64,000 nucleotides of DNA from Cognaticolwellia sediminilitoris. Lineage in GTDB: Bacteria > Pseudomonadota > Gammaproteobacteria > Enterobacterales > Alteromonadaceae. The position numbers were made by a program, and so were the translations under genes. The notes under the pieces are model-generated. The model searched no databases and was not told the DNA's origin. It saw nothing but the letters and a program-made list of their open reading frames with translations. The DNA is taken from NCBI GenBank assembly GCA_002104535.1, contig NBOG01000005.1:186001-250000 (forward strand), read 5' to 3'. Below, one piece after another: positions 58,529 through 61,002 of the stretch. Position 1 is the first letter of the stretch. Each line of letters starts with the position of its first letter.

Positions 58529-58666
58529 TGGCTGTAAACTAAACCGTACGTAATTGCTGACAACATTTACTAACTAAACTAGCCTTAAAATTAGGGGCTA
58601 TTATCGAGTTATGGTAAAAAATAGCCCATTCAAAACTCGCTTAACTTTAACTTAAGTAATAATACT

Positions 58667-59200
58667 ATGATTAATGTAAAACGCTTCCACCATGTGGCTT
58701 ACCGCTGTAAAGACGCTAAAGAAACAGTCGATTGGTATCAAAAACATTTAAATATGGAGCTTACTGTCGCTATCGCTGAAAATGAAGTGCCTTCGACAAA
58801 AGCACCCGACCCTTACATGCATATATTTCTAGATGCTGGCATGGGTAATGTTTTAGCCTTTTTTGAAATACCTAATTCTCCTGATATGGGTCGCGATGAA
58901 AACACCCCACAATGGGTACAACATATCGCCTTAGAAGTTGATGATCTAGATGCTTTGATTTCAGCCAAAAGTGATCTGCAAGCTAAAGGTGTCGATGTTT
59001 TAGGACCGGTTCATCATGGCGTATTTAAATCTATCTATTTCTTTGATCCTAATGGTCACCGCTTAGAACTAGCCGCAAACACTGGTACAGCTGAGCAATA
59101 TGCTGAATTAAAACGTGTAGCACCGCTAATGGTTGAAGAATGGTCTATAACCAAAAAAGCACCAACACATGCCGCTTGGTTACACCAAAAAGAAGATTAA
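58667..59200 (+). CDS. VOC (glyoxalase/bleomycin-resistance) family protein
   Basis: 177 residues with the two-fold VOC fold: RFHHVAYRCKDAKETVDWYQKHLNM, then WVQHIALEVDDLDALI, and SIYFFDPNGHRLELA, supplying His and Glu metal ligands. Members are extradiol dioxygenases, lyases or resistance proteins; the substrate is unknown. Single gene. Confidence 0.85.
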   Translation: MINVKRFHHVAYRCKDAKETVDWYQKHLNMELTVAIAENEVPSTKAPDPYMHIFLDAGMGNVLAFFEIPNSPDMGRDENTPQWVQHIALEVDDLDALISAKSDLQAKGVDVLGPVHHGVFKSIYFFDPNGHRLELAANTGTAEQYAELKRVAPLMVEEWSITKKAPTHAAWLHQKED

Positions 59201-59506
59201 ATAACAACATTTCACCGTCACTTAAGTTCACTTTAAGTGACGATTTCAAACAAAATAGTAAAGTAGATAATGTCTAAATATGATTTTTTTGATGCTATTT
59301 TCACGATAAATAAGCTAAATATTACAAATTCGATGATTACTTTTGTAAGACATTGACCATAGAAAGCGTAAATAACAAAATTAAATTACACTTTTTAACA
59401 ATTTAATTACATTTAAAAACAGCATCTTGCTGATTTGTGCAATTTTAAAGTGAAAATTATGGATAAAACGACTTGCTGCAATAAAAAAGTAACGTAAAGT
59501 ATGTTC
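59201..59506 (+). promoter_or_regulatory. Regulatory region upstream of the CsrC-like RNA
   Basis: AT-rich sequence with no ORF. A 59218-59242 hairpin (GTCACTTA and complement) follows the VOC gene. TGTAAG at 59344-59349 matches the left half of the UvrY/VarA/GacA box, but the right half (ACCATA) does not match CTTACA. A possible promoter is TTGCTG (59473-59478) and TAAAGT (59495-59500) with a 16 base spacer. Confidence 0.5.
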
Positions 59507-59842
59507 CAGCTAGTTGACTAGCACTAAACAAAACGGATTGAATAAGCACGGAAAGCAGTAAGCGTTTTATACGCAGCAAACTTTTAAAGCATGGATTGTT
59601 TACTAAAACTCAAGATGAGTACTTAAATATTACCCGATTGGGTATTACGGATAACCTAATAAAGCGTCAGGAAGACCGACAAAAATAAATTAAGCATGGA
59701 AGTAATAATAATAAGATTGGACACTGTCAAATAAACAGGGACTGTATCAATAAGCTAGGAAAGCTCATAAAGTATCGGAAGTAACATTGTTGGCTTATGC
59801 CACATTTTCTCCAAAAGCGACGTTAATAACGTCGCTTTTTTC
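59507..59842 (+). ncRNA. csrC: CsrB/CsrC-type regulatory RNA (CsrA antagonist), candidate
   Basis: About 336 bases without coding potential, ending in an intrinsic terminator. Ten GGA motifs lie between 59535 and 59779. Two are in loops of perfect small hairpins: GTC-AGGAA-GAC (59666-59676) and AGCT-AGGAA-AGCT (59753-59765). A third sits in TAT-TACGG-ATA. Repeated GGA in hairpin loops is the hallmark of RNAs that titrate CsrA. In E. coli csrC lies next to yihI, and yihI is the next gene here (59911). The 5' end is approximate. CsrA binding is inference. Confidence 0.82.
59813..59842 (+). terminator. Intrinsic terminator of the CsrC-like RNA
   Basis: AAAAGCGACGTT pairs with AACGTCGCTTTT around loop AAT, followed by a T-run. 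It separates the RNA from yihI. Confidence 0.92.
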
Positions 59843-59910
59843 TTTCTATCGCGGTTTAGCGTGGAATGTCGTAAAATACCCCCAATTGTTCATTTTATTA
59901 AGTTATTACT

Positions 59911-60492
59911 ATGTCTCGTACTAAAAAATCTCGCAAGCCTGGCACTGGCTCTAGTGGCGTCCTAAAGGATGACAAAAAGAAAGTCCTTGCTCCTGTTCCT
60001 CGAAAAGCTAAAAAGAAAAACGGCAAAGAAGCAGGCAATCGTCAAAAGGAAGCGAATCCTCAAATTATAAATGGACAAAATTCTTCGGCAAACAAAGACC
60101 CGCGTCTCGGTAGTAAAACCCCGATTGACCTAGGCAAACCTATTGCTGCGCCAATGAAAACTAAAACAGTAAAAGCGACTAAGAAACCGCAAGATAACTC
60201 ACCCATTGCTGCTATACGTGCTGTTGAAACCGGTGAAACACTAGCGGAACAATTAAGTCGTATCGAGCAAGACCCTAAGCTGCTTGAAATTTTAGAAAAA
60301 CAAGATGAAGACGCAGCACTAACCGCTGATGAAGTGAATTATTTTAATACCTTAATGGAACAGCATGAAAAAATCACTGCTGAATTAGGCCTTGAAGATG
60401 AAGACGAAGAAGTAGCACCTGCTCGTAAGTCAGACTCTGAAGATGATCTATGGGACAAGTTTGATAACAGCGATTTATCAAAATTTGAATAA
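59911..60492 (+). CDS. yihI: Der GTPase-activating protein YihI
   Basis: 193 residues. Basic N-terminus SRTKKSRKPG, then KDPRLGSKTPIDLG (as E. coli KDPRIGSKTPIPLG), a helical middle and an acidic tail (LEDEDEEVAPA). YihI stimulates the ribosome-assembly GTPase Der. It is 9 bases before a DUF2489 gene. Upstream is a CsrC-like RNA, as in E. coli. Confidence 0.92.
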   Translation: MSRTKKSRKPGTGSSGVLKDDKKKVLAPVPRKAKKKNGKEAGNRQKEANPQIINGQNSSANKDPRLGSKTPIDLGKPIAAPMKTKTVKATKKPQDNSPIAAIRAVETGETLAEQLSRIEQDPKLLEILEKQDEDAALTADEVNYFNTLMEQHEKITAELGLEDEDEEVAPARKSDSEDDLWDKFDNSDLSKFE

Positions 60493-60501
60493 GGTGGTGA
60501 C

Positions 60502-61002
60502 ATGTTTTCAAACCCTTGGATATATCTCGCTTTATTAGGTCTTGCAATTATTGTCGTGCTCGCGGCAATAGCGACTAAATTGCTTAGGCAATTAAAGCAA
60601 CAAACACTTGAGCAAGAAAAACAAAAGGCAGCACAACAAATAGCTTTGCAGCAACATGATCAAAAGATTATCGCCAGTGTCATTATTATTGTCCGTGCGA
60701 TGAAAGAAGAGCAATGCGATTTGGCCGAAGGCTGCTGGCGCTTAAGTGTATTACTTGATTCATTAAAGTTGAGTCAAGACTTGAATAAGCAGTTTCCTAC
60801 GGTATTTAAGTTTTATGAAGCGATCAAGCATATGCCAATTCTCGAGGCACGAAAGAAGCTAGATAAGCAATCACGCATGAAGCTCGATTTTGAACGGATG
60901 AAACTTGAAGCTGAACTCGCTGAAGACATTCGCAAAGATATTGAATTACTGCACCAATATGCCAACGAGCGCAAGAGCATGCTGAGCGATGCCGCCGCTT
61001 AA
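60502..61002 (+). CDS. DUF2489 membrane-anchored protein
   Basis: 166 residues. One N-terminal transmembrane helix (5-27: WIYLALLGLAIIVVLAAIA) and a helical cytoplasmic part with a coiled-coil start (QLKQQTLEQEKQKAAQQ). The DUF2489 family is found between yihI and hemN in many gammaproteobacteria. Function unknown. Confidence 0.85.
   Translation: MFSNPWIYLALLGLAIIVVLAAIATKLLRQLKQQTLEQEKQKAAQQIALQQHDQKIIASVIIIVRAMKEEQCDLAEGCWRLSVLLDSLKLSQDLNKQFPTVFKFYEAIKHMPILEARKKLDKQSRMKLDFERMKLEAELAEDIRKDIELLHQYANERKSMLSDAAA

Follow-up and report, generated by a model that had tools for sequence, protein, structure and literature searches.

Does the GGA-rich stretch that precedes yihI in this Colwellia-type genome encode a CsrC-type RNA, and does the locus correspond to that of csrC in E. 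coli? The candidate region (59507–59842 of the window, i.e., the whole 64,000-nt stretch of DNA that was analyzed) is located between a glyoxalase-family gene (58667–59200) and yihI, which is followed by a DUF2489 gene and, two genes on, by a hemN-like gene. The initial annotation had described the region as non-coding, adjacent to yihI and closed by a strong terminator, and had read it as a CsrB/CsrC-type RNA. These descriptions were reproduced: yihI, identified by its Pfam domain, adjoins the candidate as it adjoins E. coli csrC; the longest listed ORF lying wholly within the RNA on the RNA strand had 30 codons; and a 12-pair stem followed by a T-run was found at the 3′ end (Table 1), in a scan of 58600–60900 that retrieved four such sites versus 2.0 expected. 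At the level of sequence, the locus has the form of a free non-coding RNA ending in an intrinsic terminator. The terminator stem is itself nearly self-complementary, with an A-run on one side and a T-run on the other, so transcription of the opposite strand may also stop there; the genus genomes matched it on both strands.

Table 1. Predicted features of the candidate csrC locus (window coordinates).
Feature	Position	Strand	Remarks
csrC-type UvrY-binding element TGTAAGACATTGACCATA (putative)	59344–59361	+	16/18 identical to Salmonella csrC, 15/18 to E. coli
-35-like TTGCTG	59473–59478	+	Weakly inferred from sequence; 16 nt before TAAAGT
-10-like TAAAGT within CGTAAAGTA (59493–59501)	59495–59500	+	As before E. 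coli csrC
csrC-type ncRNA (predicted transcript)	59508–59843 (~336 nt)	+	5′ end placed by analogy with E. coli csrC; 3′ end at the T-run
Hairpin GC-ACGGAAA-GC	59546–59556	+	GGA in loop; both pairs invariant in 17/17
Hairpin ACTC-AAGAT-GAGT	59608–59620	+	3/4 pairs changed on both sides; GGA of 15/17 alignment rows is AAGA here
Hairpin GTC-AGGAA-GAC	59666–59676	+	Pairs invariant in 17/17; also present before yihI in other genera
Hairpin ACA-GGGAC-TGT	59735–59745	+	Weaker: 92.2% of cells paired, 1/3 pairs changed on both sides; author-chosen, absent from RNAalifold prediction
Hairpin AGCT-AGGAA-AGCT	59753–59765	+	2/4 pairs changed on both sides
Intrinsic terminator (stem 59813–59839) and T-run	59813–59843	+	Terminator scan; pairing in 98.5% of cells (17 members)
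yihI	59911–60492	+	PF04220, 76.7 bits; neighbor marking the locus

The ten GGA motifs reported in the initial annotation are present in the region (with a single TCC), as are the two perfect hairpins that it named, GTC-AGGAA-GAC and AGCT-AGGAA-AGCT. Dinucleotide shuffles contained 4.2 GGA on average (sd 1.5), with 2 of 5000 reaching ten, and 27 of 5000 mononucleotide shuffles of the same bases contained at least ten. When the entire window was scanned in 12-base steps, 0.2% of the 336-base stretches on the plus strand (the candidate region included) and none on the minus strand reached this number. The predicted fold of the single window sequence was ordinary (z of -1.14, with 14 of 100 shuffles folding equally well), and the structural case therefore rests on the comparison of relatives.

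Homologs of the region were sought with blastn using 59200–59910, and matches were obtained in 22 of 60 genomes, corresponding to all 17 genomes of the genus (own genome included) and five other members of the family. In the 16 genus genomes besides its own, the matches started at 59341–59343, just 5′ of TGTAAG, in ten, at 59377–59379 in five, and at 59465 in one. A separate yihI protein search yielded 11 loci titled Colwellia or Cognaticolwellia, which may overlap in part with the blastn genomes; nine of them matched the genus RNA profile at >296 bits and L072 scored 86 bits, while no profile match was reported for L071, where only 367 bases were present before yihI. Automatic intergenic boundaries contained spurious ORFs and were therefore left out of the counts. 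Ten GGA columns were conserved in 12–17 of the 17 genus members, each of which carried 8 to 13 GGA. The window has GGA at nine of these columns (its GGA at 59698 was split by alignment gaps and excluded from the column count), and the tenth reads AAGA at 59613; the stem of this conserved AGGA hairpin is retained, and one predicted CsrA site is thus lost in this strain.

The unguided RNAalifold prediction placed three AGGA and one ACGGA motifs in hairpin loops, with 12 of 48 pairs changed on both sides; the ACAGGGACTGT hairpin was added manually and is not part of that prediction. For the GGA hairpins, 97.4% of the cells of the 17 genus members could pair, and 6 of 16 pairs showed changes on both sides. 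Their covariation score was reached by none of 500 shuffles, and slid controls gave at most two pairs changed on both sides. Because the structure was partly derived from those same sequences, the slid control on cells paired favors it, and the both-side-change counts are the better measure. In the predicted ensembles, the unpaired probability was 0.57 for GGA (179 sites), 0.53 for all bases, and 0.42 for AGG/GAG controls (57 sites), so the GGA motifs are predicted to be only mildly more unpaired than average. The region contains many GGA motifs, a good part of them in hairpin loops, with a mild predicted gain in accessibility.

These comparisons also bear on the idea that the stretch is a small-protein gene or a chance GGA-rich spacer, to which we give almost no credence. 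Short ORFs do exist in it, as noted above, but the longest stop-free stretch ranges from 32 to 58 codons among the 17 members and the relatives differ by insertions and deletions of 1–2 bases; the coding reading was rejected on the variable stop-free length and the presence of short ORFs only. A chance spacer would have to account for the conservation of both the GGA columns and the pairs, besides a motif number that shuffling rarely attains.

The initial annotation had pointed to TGTAAG at 59344 as half of a UvrY box, and the sequence offers more than this, since the hexamer opens a whole 18-base csrC-type element. The UvrY-bound csrC element is TGTGAGACATTGCCGATA in E. coli and TGTGAGACATTGACCATT in Salmonella, as determined by ChIP-exo and footprinting in the excerpted text of PMC4682653. 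TGTAAGACATTGACCATA was the sole match to the Salmonella form in the window at up to three mismatches, and 7 of 100 shuffles contained such a match. The -10-like element reads TAAAGT in 14 of the 17 genus members and TACAGT in the other three, and the TTGCTG/TAAAGT promoter was absent from the list produced by the consensus promoter scan. The distance from the center of the UvrY element to TAAAGT was 142.5 nt in the window versus 146.5 nt in E. coli csrC, a spacing close to that of csrC. The center of the E. coli K-12 element precedes the RefSeq csrC start by 159.5 nt, and CGTAAAGTA stands immediately 5′ of that start; given the matching spacing and position, the RNA here probably starts near 59508, by analogy. 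Between the element and the promoter, an A+T-rich block (59380–59430), around TTAACAA...ATTACA...TAAAAACA, was strongly conserved in the genus and may be bound by a further factor, for example IHF.

The genome also encodes the proteins expected of a Csr circuit, i.e., one CsrA (91.4 bits), a 214-codon response regulator assigned by NCBIfam to the UvrY/SirA/GacA family (401.2 bits against a cut-off of 280), and a histidine kinase that received the name BarA (1171.2 bits against a cut-off of 890). Within the genus, bases 1–12 of the element were intact in 11 of 17 members and one base off in L017, and in the other five (L009, L013, L014, L016, and L018) the alignment, read by eye, showed the element degraded or absent. 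These five retain the GGA array, and the predicted CsrC of Shewanella oneidensis is transcribed and unaffected by the loss of BarA or UvrY in the excerpted text of PMC3171408; both facts would fit an RNA of the same CsrA-sequestering kind whose level is set in this lineage by a factor other than UvrY, the element being a remnant. We consider this unlikely, although it retains some weight, as the window element keeps 16 of 18 bases in common with Salmonella, TAAAGT follows at 142.5–143.5 nt in all 12 genus members with a placeable element, and both UvrY and BarA are encoded in the genome.

A CsrC-type RNA is supported by its position at yihI, the spacing of the UvrY element, GGA hairpins with changes on both sides, and the presence of genes for CsrA, UvrY, and BarA. 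Very probably, the region encodes an orthologue of csrC whose RNA sequesters CsrA and is controlled by BarA-UvrY; we infer that it is transcribed, depends on UvrY, and binds CsrA. A signal passing through BarA would lead to phosphorylated UvrY, which would bind 59344–59361 and turn on transcription of the RNA. The product would be an RNA of ~336 nt with a UvrY-controlled promoter of its own and the intrinsic terminator at its 3′ end. The GGA motifs, of which several lie in the loops of small hairpins, would bind several CsrA dimers and keep CsrA off mRNAs, such that induction of the RNA would lower free CsrA. CsrA acts on carbon flow or motility in other bacteria, and by analogy we infer that the RNA may affect carbon flow, metabolism, or motility here.

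The Rfam covariance models, proposed in the initial annotation as a check on its reading, did not bear it out: no CsrB or CsrC was found in the region, either at gathering scores or with E relaxed to 10. The window RNA was not listed for RF00084 (CsrC; gathering, 61 bits) at E up to 10, while E. coli csrC, used as a positive control, scored 278.7 bits with the same model. RF00018 (CsrB; gathering, 71 bits) had no match in the window, and 18 related loci gave no Rfam CsrC or CsrB match at E up to 0.1. The best weak Rfam match was sraA in antisense orientation (59805–59899; 29.8 bits versus a gathering score of 56), which covers the terminator hairpin and was set aside. Nor did the genus profile match the body of E. 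coli csrC by nhmmer (E up to 10), and in E. coli the promoter profile gave a weak match of 4.1 bits at the UvrY element. The negative Rfam outcome is a limit of the models, not an absence of the RNA. As the RNA body does not resemble that of E. coli csrC, the case for orthology is built on the position of the locus, the architecture of its promoter, and motifs in common.

The only RF00018 match in the genome itself lies outside the window, in a separate CsrB-like RNA (L001; G000:C29:123214–123504, minus strand; 25.7 bits). The matched stretch contains 15 GGA, with the palindromic UvrY-type box TGTAAGACATATCTCACA upstream, and is 83–87% identical over 326–426 bases to the sequences matched by RF00018 in four further genomes of the genus. 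A search with a stricter filter returned RF00018 matches in those 4 of the 17 genus genomes only, its own genome being unmatched. Searching the genome for TGTRAGNNNNNNCTYACA with at most one mismatch yielded 21 sites, compared with 11 when the motif was reversed as a control. Inspection of six of the 21 showed a GGA-rich stretch 3′ of the CsrB-like one only. Given this coverage, a third Csr RNA in the genome is possible. Also outside the window, TGTAAGACATATCTCAAA (L151; G000:C7:10441–10458) differs at one base from the L001 box and follows a GTPase-like ORF and precedes two small ORFs (~60 codons), with no GGA-rich stretch; it is possibly a direct UvrY target, or a chance occurrence.

How far the locus extends beyond the genus was assessed from both the element and yihI. 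Allowing one mismatch, the degenerate UvrY element had 71 matches in 62 of 295 genomes of the order versus 22 for the reversed control (hand count), so a good part of the single element matches is due to chance; in its own genome, the element matched at the 59344 site only. Thirty element loci were fetched, six of which (the window being one) had yihI in reach, and these contained 10 to 16 GGA per 300 bases on the same strand; in five of the six, TAAAGT or TACAGT lay 142–147 nt 3′ of the element. Among the remaining 24 loci, two (L082 and L083) reached ten GGA per 300 bases. Three genomes of one family (G109, G170, and G296) carried pairs of UvrY-type elements 733–736 bases apart on a single strand, which suggests tandem Csr RNAs, and a genome of another family (G043) had five RF00018 matches within ~2.5 kb.

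Among 16 yihI loci representing other genera in the family, 12 had a match to the genus profile upstream (E up to 0.01, within 1.5 kb of yihI), and all 12 matches were on the yihI strand; the controls gave 0 of 16 each for downstream, shuffled, and reversed sequences. Nine of those loci had a stretch covering the hairpin, six carrying AAAG(C/T)GTCAGGANGACC exactly and three a near form. The same upstream test in other families was positive in 1 of 13 loci. At six loci (L035, L038, L043, L044, L049, and L051), a methyltransferase-like gene separates yihI from the upstream GGA-rich region, three of them (L044, L049, and L051) having a profile match at E up to 0.01; all six proteins encoded in this position, which come from four families, were methyltransferase-like.

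Since the RNA region lies just 5′ of yihI on the same strand, it might instead be a 5′ untranslated leader or regulatory element of yihI. This is very improbable: the conserved 12-pair terminator and T-run would end the RNA 72 bases before yihI, and in other genera a methyltransferase gene intervenes between the profile match and yihI, and on these two grounds the leader reading was rejected. For the free csrC-type RNA, we lean toward a history in which the csrC locus at yihI did not arise within the enterobacteria but is ancient in the order as a whole, where the UvrY element, the 142–147 nt spacing to TAAAGT, and the GTCAGGANGAC hairpin would have been retained while the other RNA sequence drifted beyond the current RNA models, a methyltransferase gene was gained or lost before yihI, and some lineages have since become uncoupled from UvrY.

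Overall, the locus is very probably a csrC orthologue in Colwellia-type bacteria that was missed by automated RNA annotation, and the initial annotation called it correctly. Our literature search retrieved no title or abstract opening reporting this RNA in Colwellia; Kulkarni and others (2006), reportedly a published prediction of Csr RNAs, was outside its scope. The main interest is the apparently long persistence of the locus and of its promoter spacing. With this RNA, Colwellia-type marine bacteria would have a concrete upstream input to CsrA, which was upregulated in a Colwellia population under oil or dispersant treatments without added nutrients, according to the excerpted metatranscriptome report (PMC10516948). 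The Rfam CsrC model misses syntenic csrC outside enterobacteria, and the present alignment could seed a wider model.

CsrA-binding RNAs have already been described or proposed in related marine bacteria, and the biology is therefore expected. Aln1a-c of Alteromonas macleodii Te101 were proposed as CsrA-sequestering RNAs from dRNA-seq, where they are among the most expressed genes (PMC5864184, in excerpt); compared by description, they are likewise RNAs of a marine relative, but they form three near-identical copies in one 404-bp intergenic region, and yihI does not appear in their description. In Shewanella oneidensis, CsrB1 and CsrB2 are GGA-rich RNAs with UvrY boxes (PMC3171408, in excerpt), and the predicted CsrC, as described in the same excerpt, has four conserved motifs only, lies between mutM and SO_4727, and is independent of BarA/UvrY. 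CsrB, represented here by L001, resembles the window RNA in its richness in GGA, its terminator, and its upstream UvrY-type box, but L001 occupies a separate locus, its box is palindromic, its GGA number is higher, and its RF00018 match, albeit sub-threshold, has no counterpart in the window RNA. The closest parallel is CsrC of E. coli and Salmonella, which likewise precedes yihI and has the UvrY element, CGTAAAGTA at a near-equal distance, and an intrinsic terminator. E. coli csrC is similarly rich in GGA (14 motifs), and hairpin ACTCAGGATGAG is common to it and most genus relatives, with TGTCAGGAAGACA in E. coli csrC corresponding to CGTCAGGAAGACC in the window RNA. The RNA body here is too diverged for RF00084 to detect it and for the genus profile to match E. 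coli csrC; the 5′ neighbor is a glyoxalase-family gene instead of yihA; and, unlike in E. coli, yihI and hemN are separated by a DUF2489 gene.
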